Below are positions 50,908 to 59,008 of a stretch of DNA of 64,000 nucleotides, one piece after another (position 1 is the stretch's first letter; each line of letters starts with the position of its first letter). Under the pieces are notes generated by a model. That model saw nothing but the letters and a program-made list of their open reading frames with translations. It was not told the origin of the DNA and ran no database searches. Source of the stretch: Aquisphaera giovannonii (GTDB lineage: Bacteria > Planctomycetota > Planctomycetia > Isosphaerales > Isosphaeraceae); NCBI RefSeq assembly GCF_008087625.1, contig NZ_CP042997.1, positions 4,836,001 to 4,900,000 of the forward strand, in the 5' to 3' direction. The translations under genes and the position numbers were made by a program.

Positions 50908-53307
50908 CTACGATGCGGCCCGGCGTCCGCGGCGGGCCCGCATCCAGGCGCAGTAGACGGTGGCGGCACAGACGAGGGCCACGAGGGCGAGCTGCCAGGG
51001 GCTGTCGATCAGGCGGAGCGGCCAGGAGTAGGGCTGGCGGAGGACGACGACCAGCGGGGTCCGGCCGACGCGGTGGTAGTCCGTCATGGCGCCGGCGTGG
51101 ACGTACTCGACGGCCTCCTTCAGGGACGGGTCGGCCTCGAAGGACGCCATGAGGGGGACGTCCGACGCGGCCCGCCAGATCGGGTCGAACGGGGCGCCGG
51201 CGGTGGCGTGGTCCGGGCTCAGGAGGACGACGTAGCGCGAGGGCGGGGTGCCCTCGAACTCGGTGTAGGTCCAGTCCGGCGGGCTGACCACCGCGGCGCC
51301 CGGGAGCTCGTTGCGCATGTCCAGGTCCACGAGCTGCGACCCGGCCGTGACGTTGGCCACCAGGAGCGCCACCCAGCGGCCCGCCTCCTCGTCCCAGACG
51401 CGGGTGGCGATCGCCACCTTGTAGCGGTCGTCCTTGATCGAATGGTAGACCCGCGAGACGTAGTAGGCGTGCCGCTCGCCCTCCAGCGGGGGTCGCCGGA
51501 AGCCCTGGAAGTAGTCGCGCCGGGAGAAGTCCCTGCCCAGGAACCGCTCCCCCTCGGGGATCGTGTCGGCCAGGAGGGTGCCGGAGGGGTCGACCAGGTA
51601 GACGTTGAACAGCGGCTGGCTGTCGGTGAGGTCGAACCAGTAGTTGTAGTCCTTCGAGATCTCGGCGAGGAACGCGTCGAGGGCGAGGCGGAGCTCCCGC
51701 GGGGAGCCGTCGTGGCGGCGGAAGGCGTCCACGAGCCGCGGGTCCCGTGCGGAGCGGACGATGGCCCGGCCGATCATCCGGAGCTTGTCGTCGACGTCGC
51801 GGGCCAGCCGCGCGGCCTCGCGGGCGTTCGAGGTGCGGAGCTGGCCGAACGAGCCGGCGGCGGCGGCGAGCACCCCGAAGGCGATCGCGGCGAGGGCGAC
51901 CTGGAACGGGTGCCGGCGGGCCCAGAAGCGCAGGTGCTTGCTCGTCGAGGGCCCGCCGGCGACCGTCGGCTCGCCGCGGAGCCGGCGGCCCAGGTCGTTG
52001 GCCAGGGCGTCGGCCGAGCCGTAGCGGCGGGCCGGATCCCGGTGCAGGCACTTCAGGCAGATCGCCTGGAGCTCGGCGTCCACCTCCGGGTTCAGCCGGC
52101 GTGGCGGCGTGAGATTCCCCTCGATCACCATCGCCGCGGTCTCGGTCCCGTCCTTGCCCTGGAACGGGGGCCGGCCGGTGAGCATCGCGTAGAGGATCGC
52201 CCCCAGGCCGTACACGTCGGACGCCGTCGAGACGTCGGCCCACCGCCCGGCGGCCATCTCCGGCGACATGTACGGGAAGGTGCCCACCGCCCCCAGCCGG
52301 TAGAGCGTCCGCGAGGCCTCCTCGCTCATCGCGTCCGCGACGGGGTACGCGACCGTCTCGTCCTGCGGGCCGGCCCCCGGCGCCGGGGCCGGCGCCGCGG
52401 CCGGGCCGCCCCCCGCCGATGCGTCCGGGCCCGGGGCCGGGTCCGCCTCCGATTCCCCGTCGAGCTCCGGGCTCAGGCCCGTGGACCTCGACCCGGCGGC
52501 CAGTGTGGCCAGGGACTCCACGCGGATGGCCAGGCCGAAGTCGGAGACCCGCGGCTCGCCGTCGGGGTCCAGCAGCACGTTGGCGGGCTTCAGGTCCAGG
52601 TGGAGCACGCCCGGGTTCCGCGTGTGGGCGTGGTGGATCGCCCGGGCGACCTTCTCCATGAGCGCCGCCGCCGCCTCCGGCGGGGCGGGCGAGCCCCGGT
52701 AGCGGTCGGCGACGGTGCCCCCCTCCATGAGGTCCATGGAGATGAACCAGCGCCCGCGGTCGTGGTCGAAGTACTTGATCCGGATGATGTTCGGGTGCCG
52801 CAGCGCGGCGATGATGCGGGCCTCGTCGGTGAGGCGGCGGACCGAGGAGCCGTCGGACTCGACGCGGGCGTCCAGGACCTTGAGGGCGACGAGGTCGTTG
52901 CTCTTGAGGTGCCGGGCCTTCCAGACCTCGCCCTGGCCGCCTCCGCCGAGCCGCTCCAGGAGGACGTAGCCCCCCAGCTCGTCCCCCGGGCGGGGCCGGT
53001 CCAGCCGCGTCGCGAGGCCCGCCCGGCCCGCGCCCCCGCCGGGCCCGGCGGCGGGGTGGGCGCGGGTGGCCTCGGCGCCGGGGCCGGGCGGGCCGGCGAA
53101 CGCGGCGAGGTCGTCGAAGTAGGCGGCCAGCTCCCCCGCGATCTCGGGATGGGCCGCGACCCAGTCCTCCGGCCGCGGGGCCTCGCCGCGGTCGACGGCG
53201 GCGTGGAAGTCGTAGACCGCGAGGTCCACGGCGCCCTCGGCGTCGCCGGCGCGGAGGGCGGGCCCGGCGTCGGGGCCATGGTCGTCGGGGGCGTTGCCGT
53301 CGGTCAT
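50908..53307 (-). CDS. Transmembrane Ser/Thr protein kinase with an extracytoplasmic sensor (Cache-like) domain
   Basis: A 799-residue protein from ATG 53307. An N-terminal ~115 residues precede the kinase: ATP loop ERLGGGGQGEVWKARHLKSN, the VALKVLD lysine, the catalytic loop GVLHLDLKPANVLLDPDGEP (HLD in place of HRD), VSDFGLAIR and a Pro/Ala-rich insert (~290-335) before GTFPYMSPEMAAGRWADVST. After the kinase come a membrane segment (VALAAIAFGVLAAAAGSFGQ), a ~270-residue sensor region with a Cache-like pattern (FSRRDYFQGFRRP, HAYYVSRVYHSIKDDRYKVA) and a second membrane segment. It likely senses an external ligand. An ECF sigma gene lies 8 bp upstream in the same operon. Confidence 0.92.
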   Translation of the reverse strand: MTDGNAPDDHGPDAGPALRAGDAEGAVDLAVYDFHAAVDRGEAPRPEDWVAAHPEIAGELAAYFDDLAAFAGPPGPGAEATRAHPAAGPGGGAGRAGLATRLDRPRPGDELGGYVLLERLGGGGQGEVWKARHLKSNDLVALKVLDARVESDGSSVRRLTDEARIIAALRHPNIIRIKYFDHDRGRWFISMDLMEGGTVADRYRGSPAPPEAAAALMEKVARAIHHAHTRNPGVLHLDLKPANVLLDPDGEPRVSDFGLAIRVESLATLAAGSRSTGLSPELDGESEADPAPGPDASAGGGPAAAPAPAPGAGPQDETVAYPVADAMSEEASRTLYRLGAVGTFPYMSPEMAAGRWADVSTASDVYGLGAILYAMLTGRPPFQGKDGTETAAMVIEGNLTPPRRLNPEVDAELQAICLKCLHRDPARRYGSADALANDLGRRLRGEPTVAGGPSTSKHLRFWARRHPFQVALAAIAFGVLAAAAGSFGQLRTSNAREAARLARDVDDKLRMIGRAIVRSARDPRLVDAFRRHDGSPRELRLALDAFLAEISKDYNYWFDLTDSQPLFNVYLVDPSGTLLADTIPEGERFLGRDFSRRDYFQGFRRPPLEGERHAYYVSRVYHSIKDDRYKVAIATRVWDEEAGRWVALLVANVTAGSQLVDLDMRNELPGAAVVSPPDWTYTEFEGTPPSRYVVLLSPDHATAGAPFDPIWRAASDVPLMASFEADPSLKEAVEYVHAGAMTDYHRVGRTPLVVVLRQPYSWPLRLIDSPWQLALVALVCAATVYCAWMRARRGRRAAS

Positions 53308-53315
53308 GGTCGGGC

Positions 53316-53966
53316 TCACTCGGTCCTCGGCCGGAGGTCCTCGAAGTCGCGGGTGGCGGCCAGCTCGCGGAGCGTCCGGAGCCCGCGGCGTAGCAGGCCG
53401 CCGATCGCCTGCGGCGACCGGTTCATGTGGCGGGCCACGTCCTGCACCGGCAGCCCCTCGCAGTGCTTCAGGACGATCGCCTCCGCCTGCTCGCGGGGGA
53501 GCCGCGCGAGCAGCCGCGCGACCAGCAGGGCCTTCTCCTCGGATTGTAGGCCGGCGCTGGGGGTGCTGAGGCAGGCCGGGATCAGGTGCTCCATCCCGGC
53601 GCTGCTGCGGTCCAGGTCGTGGAGCGAGACGCCGCGGGCCCGCCCGAGCTCCCGCAGCCGGTCGGCCAGGCGGGCGGCGAGGATCTGCTTCAGCCACCCG
53701 GCCCTGGCCGCGGCGCGGGCGTCGGGGCCGGCATCCCCTCCGGCGCCGGCCTCGGCCTCGGCCTCGCCGCCCCGGAAGCGGTCGCGGTCGCGATGGGCGC
53801 GGAGGAGGGTCTCCTGGATCAGGTCGGACGGGTCGACGCGGCCCCGCAGGTCGGCCGGGATCCACTTCCAGGTGAGCGCCCGGAGGTAGTCGCGGAAGCC
53901 GTCCAGGTCGCCGACGTCGGGCGGGGGCGGGGTCTTCGCGCCGGGCCTGGGCTGGGTCTCGGGCAT
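53316..53966 (-). CDS. ECF-type RNA polymerase sigma factor
   Basis: A 216-residue protein from ATG 53966. Region 2 has RALTWKWIPADLRGRVDPSD LIQETLLRAHRDRDRF, and region 4 has LVARLLARLPREQAEAIVLK then HCEGLPVQDVARHMNRSPQA IGGLLRRGLRTLREL, with the helix-turn-helix in its second half. This is the planctomycete-type ECF group that is often encoded with a Ser/Thr kinase. The kinase gene starts 8 bp after this stop, so the two are in one operon, and the kinase may phosphorylate or otherwise regulate the factor (inference). The upstream frame extension is repeat DNA, not coding sequence. Confidence 0.92.
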   Translation of the reverse strand: MPETQPRPGAKTPPPPDVGDLDGFRDYLRALTWKWIPADLRGRVDPSDLIQETLLRAHRDRDRFRGGEAEAEAGAGGDAGPDARAAARAGWLKQILAARLADRLRELGRARGVSLHDLDRSSAGMEHLIPACLSTPSAGLQSEEKALLVARLLARLPREQAEAIVLKHCEGLPVQDVARHMNRSPQAIGGLLRRGLRTLRELAATRDFEDLRPRTE

Positions 53967-54119
53967 GTCATCCCCCGGGCCGGGCACTCGTCCCCCTCGA
54001 AGCGTCACGTCGGGCTCCCCGGGCCTGCGACGGCACGCCCGACGGCCCATTCTCCCAGAGAACGCGCTTGACGGCCATCCGGGACCCGACGCCCACGGGG
54101 ACGAACGCAAGCCGAGGCT

Positions 54120-54540
54120 CACCTTCCCGGCCGGCTGCGTGAGAGCCGCAGGCGATGGGATCGCCTCGGCCGGCGGGCCGGGCCTCGTCCCCGGCCGCGG
54201 CCGGCCCGACCGTGGCGTCGCTGCGCTCCGCCACAGCCACCCATGGCCCGGGCGCACGACCCACGACGGTAGGAGCGCCCCTCCGGGTGGCTGCGCGGGG
54301 CCGGGTCGATGCCGAAACCTCGCCCGGGTGGCTGCGGCAGAGCCGGAGGCGATGCCGCGGGATCGCCGGGGCCGGCGAGCCGGGCTCGGATCCTCGCGCC
54401 GGCCCGACCGACCGTGGCGTCGCTCCGCTCCGCCACAGCCACCCGGGTCGTGTGGCATCCGATTGGGGGACAAGCGAGCGGCTCCGGGTGGCTGCGGCGG
54501 AGCCGGAGGCGATTCCGCGGGACCGCCGCGGCATCGAGTT
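54120..54540. repeat. REP-like repeats (family B), left of the RAYT gene
   Basis: Several alternating units: CGTGGCGTCGCTGCGCTCCG+CCACAGCCAC (54210-54240), GGGTGGCTGCGGCAGAGCCG+GAGGCGATGC (54329-54359), CGTGGCGTCGCTCCGCTCCG+CCACAGCCAC (54412-54442), GGGTGGCTGCGGCGGAGCCG+GAGGCGATTC (54486-54516). Neighbouring units face opposite ways. Each contains a GTGGC...GCCAC-type palindrome. The gap from the sigma factor start (53966) to the transposase (54594) holds nothing else. Confidence 0.85.
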
Positions 54541-54593
54541 GGCTGCGTCAGCCGTGCTTGCCCTCCAGAAGTTCCGGGCCTACGTTTGCCTCC

Positions 54594-55168
54594 ATGGAGT
54601 ACTGGAAACGCACGTCGCGTCGTCGATCCGGCAATGAGCCGGGTGAGGCCCACGAGCTCACGTTCACCTGCTATCGTCGCTATCGCTTCCTCGAGGCGGA
54701 CCGCACGTGCCGCTGGCTCAGCGAATCCATCCGCGACGCGAGACTCGCCCTCGACTTCTCGCTCTGGGCCTTCGTGTCATGCCCGAGCACGCCCACCTCG
54801 TGGTCTTCCCCAGGAGGCCCGAGTACGACATGGGGGATATTCTCCGGGCGATCAAGGAGCCCGTGGGCAGGCAGGCTGTCGCCTTCATCAAGGAGCACGC
54901 CCCCCGCTGGTTGCCCCGGATCTCGCGCCAGCGAGGCGAGAAGAGGGAGCGCCTGTTCTGGCAATCGGGCGGCGGCCACGATCGCAACATCCGGAAGCCG
55001 AAGGTCCTGATGGCGATGATCCACTACATCCACGAGAACCCCGTCCGAAGGGGGCTGGTTGGCCGGGCGGCGGACTGGAGATGGTCCAGCGCCGGTTGGT
55101 TCGAAGGCGAGCCGACCTGCGACCTGATCCCCGATCGCGTCCCCCCGGAGTGGGTCCCCCGAGGCTGA
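54594..55168 (+). pseudogene. REP-associated tyrosine transposase (RAYT/Y1_Tnp), frameshifted
   Basis: ATG 54594 begins MEYWKRTSRRRSGNEPGEAH, then ELTFTCYRRYRFLEADRTCR, the start of IS200/RAYT-type Y1 transposases. At 54774-54780 the frame shifts: GTG-TC-ATG appears where GTG-GTC-ATG is expected, so one base seems to be missing. The second frame continues with MPEHAHLVVFPRRPEY, the HUH-type motif in its usual place (here H-A-H), then FWQSGGGHDRNIRKPK, MAMIHYIHENPVRRGLVGRA with the presumed tyrosine, and ADWRWSSAGWFEGE. Apart from the shift all parts are intact, about 190 residues as usual. It may be a recent mutation or sequencing error. Confidence 0.85.
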
Positions 55169-55194
55169 CCAACATCGATCCGGCCCGCCAAGCC

Positions 55195-55395
55195 CTCGGG
55201 TGGCTGCGGCGGAAGCGCAGCGACGCCACGACGAGCGGGCCGGCGCAAGCGCCCCAGCTCCGCTCGCTCGCCGCGGCGGTCCCGTGGCGTCGCTGCGCTC
55301 CGCCACAGCCACCCGGAGGGGCCCTCCCGCCCTCGAAAATCGCGCGCACGATGGGCCTCGGGTGGCTGTGACGGCGTGCGGCGACGCCACGGGCA
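55195..55395. repeat. REP-like repeats (family B), right of the RAYT gene
   Basis: GGGTGGCTGCGGCGGAAGCG+CAGCGACGCCACG (55198-55230), CCGTGGCGTCGCTGCGCTCC+GCCACAGCCACCCGG (55281-55318) and GGGTGGCTGTGACGGCGTGC+GGCGACGCCACGG (55359-55391). These are the same units as on the left side, here in alternating orientation. The rest of the 55169-55630 gap shows no gene. Confidence 0.85.
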
Positions 55396-55630: not shown

Positions 55631-58600
55631 GTGGCCGAGGGCAGCACGCGGCGATCGGGCTCGGCGAATCCCACGGTCCTGGCGATGGACCACCCCGTCA
55701 CGCTGATGATGGTGGTCCTCGGCCTCATCAGCCTGGGGATGCTCGCCTACAATAAAATGCGGGTGGACATCTTCCCCTCGCTCAACACGCCCAAGATCTA
55801 CGTCTTCTTCGACTTCATCGGCATGAGCCCCGACCAGATCGAGGGCTTCATCGTCAACGAGCTGGAGCTGTATTTCCAGTACGTGGACGGCATCCAGGAC
55901 ATCAAGTCCCGGAACATCCAGCAGGTCGGCCTGATCGAGCTGGGCTTCTTCAACGGCACCGAGATGGGGCAGGCCATGGCGCAGGTGGTCGCCATGTCCG
56001 ACCGCGCCATGGCCTGGATGCCCCCCGGGGCGTTGCCGCCGATGATCATGCGCATGGACGCCGGCAGCGTGCCCATCGGCTACCTGGTCTTCAACAGCGA
56101 GGGGGACAAGACCTCCATCGGCGCCATGGGCGACCTCGCCCAGAACGTCATCCGGCCGCTCGTGCAGAAGAACGTGCCCGGCACGGTGGCCATCAGCCCC
56201 TTCGGGCCGAACATGCGGTCGATCGTCATCGACGTGGACCCCCGCAAGCTGCTCCAGTACAACCTCAACCCCCAGGACCTCATCGAGGCCCTGGCGCAGG
56301 GGAACGTCGTGATCCCGGCGGGGAACCTGTACATCAAGGACTCGATGCCGATCGTCCACAACAACGCCACGGTGGTGGACGTCCACAAGCTGGGGGACAT
56401 CCCCATCAAGCTCGGGCAGAACGTCTACATGCGCGACGTGGCGACGATCCGCGACGACACCGACATCACCTACGGCTACGCGCTGGTCAACGGCAAGAAG
56501 GCCATCCACCTGCCGATCATCAAGAAGGACACCGGCTCCACGCTCACGGTCGTCGCCGACGTCCACAAGGCCATGCCCCAATTCCGCGCCGCCGTGCCGC
56601 CGGACGTGAAGATCAGCTTCGAGTTCGACGAGTCGCCCACCGTCGTCCACGCGGTCGAGAGCGTGGCGACCGAGGGCGCCATCGGCGCCGGGCTGACCGG
56701 GCTGATGATCCTGCTGTTCCTCCGCGACCTGCGGAGCGTGATCGTCGTCGTCTGCAACATCCCCCTGGCGCTGATCGGCTCGCTGTTCGGGCTCTGGGTG
56801 ACGGGCAACACGATCAACATCATGTCCCTGGGCGGCATGGCGCTGGCGATCGGCATCCTCGTGGACGAGGCGACGGTGACGATCGAGAACACCCACGTCC
56901 AGATGGCCCGGACCCCTCGGGTCGCCACGGCCGTGCTGCACGCCAGCAACGCGACGGCCGTCCCCCGGCTGCTGGCGCTGCTCTGCATCCTCTCGGTGTT
57001 CATCCCGGCGTTCATCATGGAGGACCCCCTGCGCTCGCTGTTCATGCCGCTGACGCTGGCGGTCGGCTTCGCGATGGTCTCCTCCTACCTGCTCTCCAGC
57101 ACGTTCGTGCCGATCATGAGCGTGTACCTGCTGAAGCACAAGGCGCACGAGGACGCCGGGGGCGGGCTCTTCGGCCGGGTCGAGCGGGCCTACAAGGGGA
57201 TGGTGGAGTGGCTGCTCGGGTTCCGCCTGATCCTGGTGGGGGCCTACCTCGCCGCCTGCGTCGCCGTGCTCGCCATCCTCGGGCTCCAGGTCGGCCAGGA
57301 GCTCTTCCCGCAGATCGACTCCGGCGAGTTCGTCCTGCGGTTCCGGCCGCCGCCGGGCTCGAACTTCGAGCTGACGCGGGAGATGGGCCTGCAGTGCCTC
57401 AAGGAGATCGAGCGCGAGGCCGGGCAGGGCCAGGTGGAGATCTCCATGGGCTTCGTCGGCCAGGTGGCCCCGAACTTCGGCATCAACAACATGGTGCTGT
57501 TCATGCGGGGGCCCGACGACGGCCAGCTCCGCGTGAAGCTCGTGGAGTCCACCGACATCAAGCTCGACGCCTTCCGCGAGCGGCTCCGCCAGGTGCTCCC
57601 GGAGCGCGTGGGCGCCTGGATGGCCAGCCGCCTGGAGCAGGGGGGCGGCACCGGCGGCCTGCCGCCGGACCAGGCGAAGAAGCTGGCGGACCAATGCACG
57701 TTCGGGTTCGAGCCGGGCGACATCGTCAGCCAGGTCATGAGCTTCGGCTCCTCACGGCCGATCGCCGTCCGGATCATCGGCACCGACTACGGCGACGTCC
57801 GCAAGCACGCCGAGGCCGTGGCCGCCCGGCTGAAGGGCACGGCGCACCTCCGCGACGTCAACTTCGAGCAGACGCTCGACTACCCGTCGGTGGAGATCGA
57901 GATCGACCGCGAGCTCGCCGGCCTCGTGGGCATCACGCCCATGCACGTGAAGCGCGCCCTGGTCATGGCCACGTCCTCCACGCGGTTCTCGAACCTGAAC
58001 TACTGGATCAACGACAAGACGGGCTTCGACTACCTGGTGCAGCTCCAGGTGCCGCCCCTGCAGCTGGACAAGCCGGAGGACATCGAGGAGCTGCCGCTGG
58101 AGTCGGTCAACCCGCTCGTCCCCCTGATGGTCCGCGACGTGCTGAAGGACGGCCGGGTCCACACGAGCGTCCGGCCCGGCGAGTACGACCGCGACATGTC
58201 CCAGCGCTTCCTCACGGTGCTGGCCAACGTGGAGGGCGAGGACCTCGGCCGCGCCGCCAGGCGGGTCCGGCAGGCCGTCGACTCCCTGGGCGAGCCGCCC
58301 CGCGGCGTCCGCGTGGAGGAGCAGGGCTCGCTGCCGCAGATGACCCAGATGTTCACGTCCCTGGGCATCGGCCTGGGCGTGGCCGTGTTCGTGATCGTCG
58401 TCCTGCTGACGGCCTACTTCCAGTCCCCCCGTCTGGCGATCATCTCGGTGGGCGCCGTGCCGGGCGTGCTGGCCGGGATCGTGACGATGCTGCTGCTCAC
58501 GAACACCACGCTGAACATCGAGTCGTTCATGGGCTCGATCATGTGCCTGGGCGTCTCGGTGTCCAACTCGGTGATGATGGTCACGTTCATGGACGAGCAC

Positions 58601-59008
58601 TGGAAGGCCGGCAAGCCCTCCGCCGAGGCCGCCCTGCTGGGCGCCAGCGAGCGGCTGCGGCCGATCCTGATGACCGCATGCGCCATGACCGTGGGCATGG
58701 TCCCCATGGCGCTGGCGCTGGAGAAGGGGAGCCAGATGGAGGCCCCCCTCGGCCGCGCGGTCATCGGCGGGCTGGTGATGTCCACCTTCGCCACCCTGAT
58801 CGTGCTCCCCTCGATCTTCGCCCTGGTCATCGGGCGGCGGCAGCCCGCGTCCCCGTCGATCTACCCGGGCAACCCGGAGAGCCCGCACTTCGACCCCGAG
58901 ATGGACCTCCTCGAGGGCGAGGGCGAGGGCAACGGCCACGAGAACGGCAACGGCAACGGCAACGGCTACGACGGGCATCACGAGGCGGGAGGGCCGGAGG
59001 GATCATGA
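55631..59008 (+). CDS. RND-family efflux permease
   Basis: A 1125-residue inner-membrane protein from GTG 55631 with about twelve membrane segments and two large periplasmic loops. PVTLMMVVLGLISLGMLAYN opens the first half. TM4 has MALAIGILVDEATVTIENTH, where HAE1/AcrB proteins have D-D and this has D-E. TM10 has GVSVSNSVMMVTF where AcrB has the essential lysine (K-N), so the proton-relay set is altered. A Gly/Asn/His-rich tail ends the protein (GNGHENGNGNGNGYDGHHEA). The next gene (adaptor) overlaps the stop by 4 bp. Substrates cannot be predicted; metal, drug and lipid-type pumps all share the fold. Confidence 0.95.
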   Translation: MAEGSTRRSGSANPTVLAMDHPVTLMMVVLGLISLGMLAYNKMRVDIFPSLNTPKIYVFFDFIGMSPDQIEGFIVNELELYFQYVDGIQDIKSRNIQQVGLIELGFFNGTEMGQAMAQVVAMSDRAMAWMPPGALPPMIMRMDAGSVPIGYLVFNSEGDKTSIGAMGDLAQNVIRPLVQKNVPGTVAISPFGPNMRSIVIDVDPRKLLQYNLNPQDLIEALAQGNVVIPAGNLYIKDSMPIVHNNATVVDVHKLGDIPIKLGQNVYMRDVATIRDDTDITYGYALVNGKKAIHLPIIKKDTGSTLTVVADVHKAMPQFRAAVPPDVKISFEFDESPTVVHAVESVATEGAIGAGLTGLMILLFLRDLRSVIVVVCNIPLALIGSLFGLWVTGNTINIMSLGGMALAIGILVDEATVTIENTHVQMARTPRVATAVLHASNATAVPRLLALLCILSVFIPAFIMEDPLRSLFMPLTLAVGFAMVSSYLLSSTFVPIMSVYLLKHKAHEDAGGGLFGRVERAYKGMVEWLLGFRLILVGAYLAACVAVLAILGLQVGQELFPQIDSGEFVLRFRPPPGSNFELTREMGLQCLKEIEREAGQGQVEISMGFVGQVAPNFGINNMVLFMRGPDDGQLRVKLVESTDIKLDAFRERLRQVLPERVGAWMASRLEQGGGTGGLPPDQAKKLADQCTFGFEPGDIVSQVMSFGSSRPIAVRIIGTDYGDVRKHAEAVAARLKGTAHLRDVNFEQTLDYPSVEIEIDRELAGLVGITPMHVKRALVMATSSTRFSNLNYWINDKTGFDYLVQLQVPPLQLDKPEDIEELPLESVNPLVPLMVRDVLKDGRVHTSVRPGEYDRDMSQRFLTVLANVEGEDLGRAARRVRQAVDSLGEPPRGVRVEEQGSLPQMTQMFTSLGIGLGVAVFVIVVLLTAYFQSPRLAIISVGAVPGVLAGIVTMLLLTNTTLNIESFMGSIMCLGVSVSNSVMMVTFMDEHWKAGKPSAEAALLGASERLRPILMTACAMTVGMVPMALALEKGSQMEAPLGRAVIGGLVMSTFATLIVLPSIFALVIGRRQPASPSIYPGNPESPHFDPEMDLLEGEGEGNGHENGNGNGNGYDGHHEAGGPEGS

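Follow-up and report, generated by a model that had tools for sequence, protein, structure and literature searches.

A REP-associated tyrosine transposase gene with a one-base break among paired REP elements in Aquisphaera giovannonii

A stretch of 64,000 nucleotides of the Aquisphaera giovannonii genome (hereafter the window, 64 kb on a 10.37-Mb chromosome) was found to carry a gene for a REP-associated tyrosine transposase (RAYT) that is one base short of a continuous reading frame and lies between inverted REP palindromes of two types. The palindromes recur throughout the genome, mostly as inverted pairs (REPINs), and an intact paralogue of the gene is present at 136 kb. Very probably, this is a RAYT locus with its cognate REPs in which the window copy was inactivated by the shift, and the REPINs are either a relic or are kept up in trans by the second RAYT.

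The RAYT gene and the position of its break

The gene occupies 54594-55168 on the forward strand and consists of two overlapping frames that can be read as a single protein broken once. The N-side frame (54594-54776, 61 codons) reads MEYWKRTSRRRSGNEPGEAHELTFTCYRRYRF...LDFSLWAFV and, judging from a sister protein's model, would contain the first strand, the first helix and the second strand. The C-side frame (54779-55168, stop codon at 55166-55168) reads MPEHAHLVV...WQSGGG...YIHENPVRRGLV and includes the HUH motif (PEHAHL), WQ and the tyrosine motif YIHENPVRRG. NF047646, the NCBIfam model for REP-associated tyrosine transposases, matched both halves, with 65.8 bits (E 3.8e-18) on the C side and 17 bits (E 0.0042) on the N side against a cut-off of 80; the intact paralogue of the same genome scored 80.4 bits, barely above that cut-off. 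Identity to the sister genes L073, L075 and L074 was 66-74% in the N-side half and 67-69% in the C-side half. Among seven aligned sequences, H66 and H68 of the HUH motif and Y145, N149 and P150 of the tyrosine motif (YIHxNPVRRG) were invariant. From the literature, we take the tyrosine of YIHxNPVRRG to be the nucleophile.

The intact sister from A. insulae was modelled with AlphaFold on the basis of seven sequences (pLDDT 82.4), and the top match of this model in the PDB was 4er8, TnpAREP on a REP hairpin (E 5e-8), with the ISDra2 and IS608 transposases ranking behind. A TnpAREP-like fold was thus obtained on the sister model, in place of the window gene. Taken together, the family model, the motifs and the fold predicted for a close relative support the assignment of the window gene as a RAYT, in agreement with the first-pass annotation, which had called a Y1/RAYT gene at these positions. 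No Pfam family scored above its cut-off, and PHROGs yielded a single family, whose function is not known (4.3e-5).

Where intact relatives have a whole codon between the end of the N side (last codon 54774-54776) and the ATG at 54779, the window gene has two bases (54777-54778), so that the frame is one base short just before the HUH motif, as had been noticed at first reading. The gene is therefore interrupted, and the shift makes it the pseudogene of a RAYT, barring a sequence error or cooperation between its two parts. On the sister model, the break would map to the turn that joins strand 55-62 to the HUH strand (66-73), in which case neither fragment would have the whole sheet. No slippery run was seen at the site on inspection of the window letters.

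Outside 54777-54778, the gene has neither a stop nor an additional shift. Compared with its sisters, pN/pS was 0.26-0.36, indicating long-term constraint on both halves, which means that the break is young, or is a sequence error, or that the product still matters. Of the substitutions unique to the window copy, 9 lie on the N side and 17 on the C side; 2 of the former and 13 of the latter affect codon positions 1 or 2 (Fisher p 0.014). The C-side excess is a hint, in small numbers, of constraint that may have relaxed after the shift; the spared N side is not what a wholly dead gene would predict, and would count against our preferred explanation. On reading by eye, the neighbours at 50908-53970 and 55631-59008 are presumably look-alikes of a serine/threonine kinase and an ECF-type sigma factor (reverse strand) and of an RND-type transporter (forward strand).

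The closest RAYT kin inside the genome were the intact copy at 136 kb, which is 66% identical, and four more remote matches. An IS200/IS605 insertion sequence was considered and rejected, because many near-identical copies would be expected of it in place of one relative at 66% and four distant matches. Three members of the close set are intact, namely this second copy, the RAYT of A. insulae JC669 (genome G002, contig G002:C251, NZ_JAALJH010000046.1) and that of G011. The first-pass annotation had raised the question of whether the shift is fixed among relatives; given these three intact genes and the breaks elsewhere described below, it is not.

A search of 397 genomes of the class gave stop codons in 8 of the 150 RAYT matches listed, showing that decay is not rare in this lineage. 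Two of these belong to close relatives, a second A. insulae copy (C236) with TGA and G016 with TAG, both at a tryptophan five codons before the HUH methionine; the same tryptophan is thus replaced by different stop codons in two genera. The six further stops lie 22, 37 and 10 codons before (the last in L129) and 58, 54 and 37 codons after that methionine. When the window gene and the RAYT of G025, which is frameshifted near its N end, are added to the eight, 4 of the 10 breaks examined fall within the ten codons before the HUH motif and the other six elsewhere. If breaks were spread evenly, at least 4 of 10 in 10 of 190 codons would have a probability of 0.0012, a value computed after the fact. 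We read this pattern as recurrent decay with a susceptible tryptophan codon, and a gene that is split or recoded would also be compatible with it.

Two further matches were unusual in context. L032 (G021:C2:4939310-4939483) is a RAYT-like match whose open frame runs over 1316 codons and may be a fusion or open by chance, and L133 (G194:C43:400-2500) is a tandem RAYT pair, the first member in an open frame of 149 codons, that resembles a recent local duplication.

Two REP types and their pairing

The palindromes fall into two types, type A (GGTGGCTGTGGCGGAGCGCAGCGACGCCACGG) and type B (GGTGGCTGCGGCAGAGCCGGAGGCGATGCCGCGG, usually preceded by CGG). Upstream of the gene, a degenerate type B REP (54127-54165, forward; direct repeat D1, 67% to the reference copy) is followed by a type A REP on the reverse strand at 54210-54243, an exact 24-mer with its head at the right end (54241), by a REPIN of 117 bp at 54327-54443 that joins a forward type B to an inverted type A, and by a forward type B REP adjoining the gene (54487-54520, head at 54487, a match to the type B pattern). 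Downstream, a pair of type A REPs, forward at 55199 and reverse at 55313, spans 115 bp and is followed by a diverged forward type A REP at 55361-55392 (inverted repeat I4, head at 55361). Far from the gene, heads at 2148 (forward), 2261 (reverse), 2304 (forward) and 2421 (reverse) belong to two REPINs in tandem, one of a type A-like REP with an inverted type B (2148-2261, by head and pattern matches) and one of type A with an inverted type B (2304-2421). The first-pass annotation had reported palindromes on both flanks and again at 2.15-2.43 kb, which is borne out; it had missed that there are two types and that they pair at about 118 bp.

The whole-genome search for the palindrome that it had suggested gave a clear result. 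The sequence GTGGCTGYGGCGGA occurs at 50 places in the genome versus 4 for its reversed control, and with up to 3 mismatches allowed, the 24-base type A pattern was matched at 60 places and the 34-base type B pattern at 81, versus 0 for either reversed pattern. Exact copies made up 14 of the 60 type A and 33 of the 81 type B places, and 18 and 11 type B places carried 2 and 3 mismatches, respectively. Within the family, 6 of 45 genomes matched the type A pattern. A coding-like frame covered 4 of 111 REP heads compared with 553 of 1000 random positions, by a rough test of codon usage rather than annotation in which 1 of the 111 heads lay too near an end and 4 were lone heads of the window.

The REP head is GTGG within GGGTGGC, of the GT(A/G)G kind of known REPs, and is followed by an imperfect palindromic stem. 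With the REP laid out as a single DNA strand, the stem is interrupted by tandem G-A/G-A in 27 of 31 type A heads, 24 of 24 heads of type A plus one base and 38 of 49 type B heads, and is capped by a GNA triloop in 27 of 31, 22 of 24 and 43 of 49, respectively; the pattern used to collect heads was biased to the left G-A, not to the right G-A or the loop, and the sorting into types used stem pairs. Eight of 112 heads lay outside all three length classes. At pair 9-31 of the type B stem, C-G (33), T-A (7) and G-C (5) were found among 49 heads, with sorting by pairing favouring paired heads; this compensatory pattern speaks for selection or copying that would keep the pairing. DNA folding predicted such hairpins for types A and B and for two sister REPs, and did not yield the hairpin of these four for the REP of the A. 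insulae C236 type. Relative to shuffled sequences, folding was weak for type A alone (z -0.9) and stronger for type B (-2.0) and the two sister REPs (-3.2 and -2.9). An Rfam search returned nothing but weak microRNA look-alikes under the cut-off.

Outward-headed inverted pairs of 113-121 bp were found at 27 of 39 sites read, these being 37 fetched sites and two in the window, chosen for an exact GTGGCTGYGGCGGA, a choice that biases one end towards type A. The sites held 32 such pairs, 20 A-B, 10 B-A and 2 A-A, so that 30 of 32 were heterotypic, and at the same distance only one pair had the opposite arrangement and one the same strand. Some REPINs stand in tandem. Inverted REPs are therefore set at a fixed distance beyond chance, and the one unit that was folded (54327-54443) formed a single long hairpin (z -3.9). 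Type B showed an overall excess of one orientation (54:27), with tandem copies counted several times. An orientation of REPINs by the direction of replication was rejected, as the ratios for the two arms were 27:17 and 27:10 for type B and 15:13 and 19:13 for type A, with no change of sign between arms. These results support the palindromes as a genome-wide, mostly extragenic and paired REP family, whose inverted members flank the RAYT.

Sister systems, the shared head and the readings of the locus

The other RAYTs of the genus stand between REP variants of their own. The intact A. insulae RAYT lies between copies of GGTGGCCGTGGTGGAACACCACGG, whose palindrome is perfect and closed by a GAA loop. 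This REP occurs at 98 places in that genome (66 exact, control 0) and forms 32 pairs (64 of the 98 places) with starts 73-74 bases apart and a length of about 97 bp. The broken A. insulae RAYT (C236) has three tandem A-like REPs on each side, whose 24-base form was listed at 12 places, 5 of them at this RAYT. The intact second RAYT of the window genome (136 kb) carries a type B variant on its flanks that, among the type B places listed, occurs only there. The relation of RAYT to REPs that had first been proposed from flanking is supported by the genome-wide pairs and by the sister RAYTs. Comparison of these flanks indicates that one RAYT lineage in one genus has both bulged heterotypic and perfect symmetric REPINs, and that enzymes 74% identical go with a 34-base bulged REP in one case and a 24-base perfect REP in the other. 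Since this switch occurs among close sisters that share the head, the parts of head, bulge, loop and stem in recognition can be tested by hairpin swaps.

Uniformity was highest in the REP of the intact A. insulae RAYT (66 of 98 exact versus 14 of 60 for type A and 33 of 81 for type B). The age of a REP population was judged here from uniformity alone, and because a 24-base pattern is set against a 34-base one with two degenerate positions, the comparison is one of kind rather than degree. The intact RAYT at 136 kb is without a comparably large REP set, which is at odds with any simple rule. With intact and broken copies and REP sets of unequal uniformity, the genus offers a natural test of the model of REP decay after the death of the RAYT.

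Across the class, 32 RAYT loci were compared, comprising the best 30 of the 150 matches listed (for three of them a longer stretch of the gene was used instead) together with the window and A. insulae C236. GGGTGGC stood within 350 bases on both sides in 24 of 32 loci versus 0.36-0.43 expected from shuffled flanks, and the wider form GGGTG[G/C]C, which was chosen post hoc, in 29 of 32 versus 1.25 expected, the exceptions being L087, L088 and L101. The reversed motif was on both flanks in 0 of 32 loci (about 0.4 expected), and GTAG in 15 of 32 versus 11.7 expected. In 23 of 32 loci, counted from the listing, an upstream head points with the gene and a downstream head against it; in other loci, such as L075 and L073, heads face the gene. 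Read by eye, the sequence behind the head is palindromic in most listed cases and differs by locus. The stems diverge and the head is largely constant, which marks the head as the shared part, and recognition of GGGTGGC by the enzyme would fit this pattern. Stems range from bulged to perfect among close sister enzymes, and the sharing of the head across the class is new here.

In the mechanism that we infer, including its DNA cleavage, its copying, the loss of activity and the direction of cause, an intact enzyme of the lineage would bind single-stranded hairpins that start with GGGTGGC and would use its HUH/tyrosine site to cleave and rejoin them, and paired REPs would thereby be copied into intergenic DNA as REPINs. 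The window copy, lying beside its REPs, would have been inactivated by the one-base shift between the second strand and the HUH strand. The REPINs of types A and B would persist as a slowly diverging relic or through low-rate upkeep in trans by the RAYT at 136 kb; since this paralogue could still move both types, the REP population need not be dead. The window enzyme is probably inactive. The first-pass annotation had left it at 'switch off or regulate', and switching off is the likelier, as the break parts two strands of the predicted sheet from the HUH strand, three close relatives are intact and there is no visible slippery run, while the case for regulation is weaker and draws on the 4 of 10 breaks before the HUH motif.

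The breaks before the HUH motif also bear on programmed recoding or a split gene, in which a second polypeptide would start at the HUH ATG and the halves would reassemble into an enzyme or regulate. This idea was prompted by three close relatives, the window included, that are broken within six codons of each other; C236 (TGA) and G016 (TAG) share their tryptophan five codons before that ATG, L129 breaks at ten, the crowding of breaks has the post hoc p of 0.0012 given above, and the window gene is conserved in both halves. Against it, three of the six remaining breaks lie downstream of the motif, where a restart would be useless, a single change turns a tryptophan codon into a stop, the window site shows no slippery run and three close sisters are unbroken, so that we regard recoding as quite unlikely. 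An active window RAYT, with the break due to an error in sequencing or assembly, is also unlikely: the constraint on both halves and the rest of the gene, free of stops and shifts, are what an active gene would show, but the genome is assembled in 3 contigs with 99.94% completeness, the site is not a long homopolymer and other members are broken too, 8 of the 150 matches listed carrying a stop.

The palindromes themselves could be terminators or protein-binding sites that lie beside the RAYT by chance, and it is true that they are mostly extragenic hairpins and far outnumber RAYT genes. This is very improbable, given that GGGTGGC is on both flanks of 24 of 32 loci of the class where 0.36-0.43 would be expected, its reverse at 0 of 32, and that each sister RAYT of the genus has its own REP variant. 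A RAYT locus with cognate REPs, its enzyme gene broken, accordingly remains the preferred explanation.

Loci of this kind are already known. RAYTs with inverted REPs on either side, headed by GT(A/G)G, appear in the accessible text of PMC2817692 from 2010, and REPINs in that of PMC3116915 from 2011. The E. coli RAYT, TnpAREP (group 2), shares with the window lineage the HUH and tyrosine motifs, the fold (4er8) and REPs with interrupted stems, and E. coli REPs and BIMEs are likewise extragenic, in tandem arrays and of two types per paired unit (Y and Z2, in the accessible text of PMC2817692). However, identity to 4er8 is 22% in the structural alignment, the head here is GGGTGGC instead of GTAG, and the stem interruption here is tandem G-A/G-A under a GNA triloop. 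RAYTs of group 3 with short perfect REPs and REPINs, from Stenotrophomonas and Pseudomonas, are similar in that GT(A/G)G heads are known for them (as far as PMC2817692 is accessible). The best-studied RAYTs are proteobacterial, and the available part of PMC8266576, which also treats single-strand cleavage and the role of the head, assigns bulged and perfect REPs to two different enzyme groups, whereas the Aquisphaera lineage has both. RAYT pseudogenes with frameshifts and nonsense codons, their cognate REPs left behind and decaying, have been reported from Pseudomonas and Stenotrophomonas together with a model of the decay (PMC3686654, in its accessible part); the present case differs in its phylum, its REP class and its intact second RAYT.

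Within the HUH classification, Table 1 in the available part of PMC6006769 contains no subclass with exactly the motif set of the window lineage, and class 3, which names Planctomycetes, differs in its tyrosine motif. REPs are mentioned for Planctomycetes in the accessible text of PMC3733652. The GTAG-tagged repeats of Planctomycetes and Verrucomicrobia treated there are also palindromes with tagged ends, and GTGG is the majority head of one Opitutus terrae family, but that text gave neither a RAYT of the window lineage nor a GGGTGGC head. A full-text literature search returned no paper on a REP-associated tyrosine transposase in Planctomycetota. The lineage with its head thus appears to be undescribed in the searchable literature; new here are the class-wide GGGTGGC head, the finding that closely related sisters differ in having bulged or perfect REPs, and the uneven distribution of REPs along the chromosome.

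Distribution of REPs on the chromosome

When REPs within 1 kb were merged, the window genome contained 93 sites. No listed place of either REP pattern fell at 1.75-3.89 or 6.31-8.03 Mb, and the window lies between these gaps, at 4.836-4.900 Mb. At 2.17 and 1.73 Mb, each is wider than any gap in 20,000 random draws, where the maximum was 1.61 Mb, and a looser pattern likewise had no match between 1.745 and 3.893 Mb among the matches listed, which extend up to 6.3 Mb. The two gaps mirror each other about dnaA (best match at 10.18 Mb, used as a proxy for the origin) and its antipode; there is a second, weaker dnaA-like match at base 49, 0.19 Mb from the best one. The axis statistic, calculated on 41 sites after merging over 50 kb, was 0.56 and was unmatched in 20,000 random draws. 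In other genomes, the same test gave p 0.013 for G027 (sites merged over 50 kb, a chromosome of about 9.6 Mb assumed) and was not significant for either REP type in G029 (p 0.19 and 0.68).

Gene density was rejected as a cause of the gaps, the mean coding fraction by a rough count of ten 20-kb stretches each being 0.88 in the gaps and 0.89 outside, as was base content, G+C being only slightly lower in the gaps (0.70 versus 0.72). A very loose head pattern gave 27 matches in ten gap stretches versus 33 in ten others; these matches are taken as chance, and the pattern does not show the gaps. Integrase genes do occur within the gaps (5 of the 9 on the chromosome, with a gap share of 37.6%). That REPINs in these planctomycetes arise or persist only close to the origin and terminus of replication is a tentative idea that we consider doubtful; if true, it would point to control of single-strand transposition, or of REP retention, by replication state or chromosome domain.

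G027 gave no RAYT match at E 1e-5. It contains 45 places of a related REP, GGTGCCACGGGTTC, many of them paired 70 bases apart, perhaps a REPIN set that outlived its enzyme.
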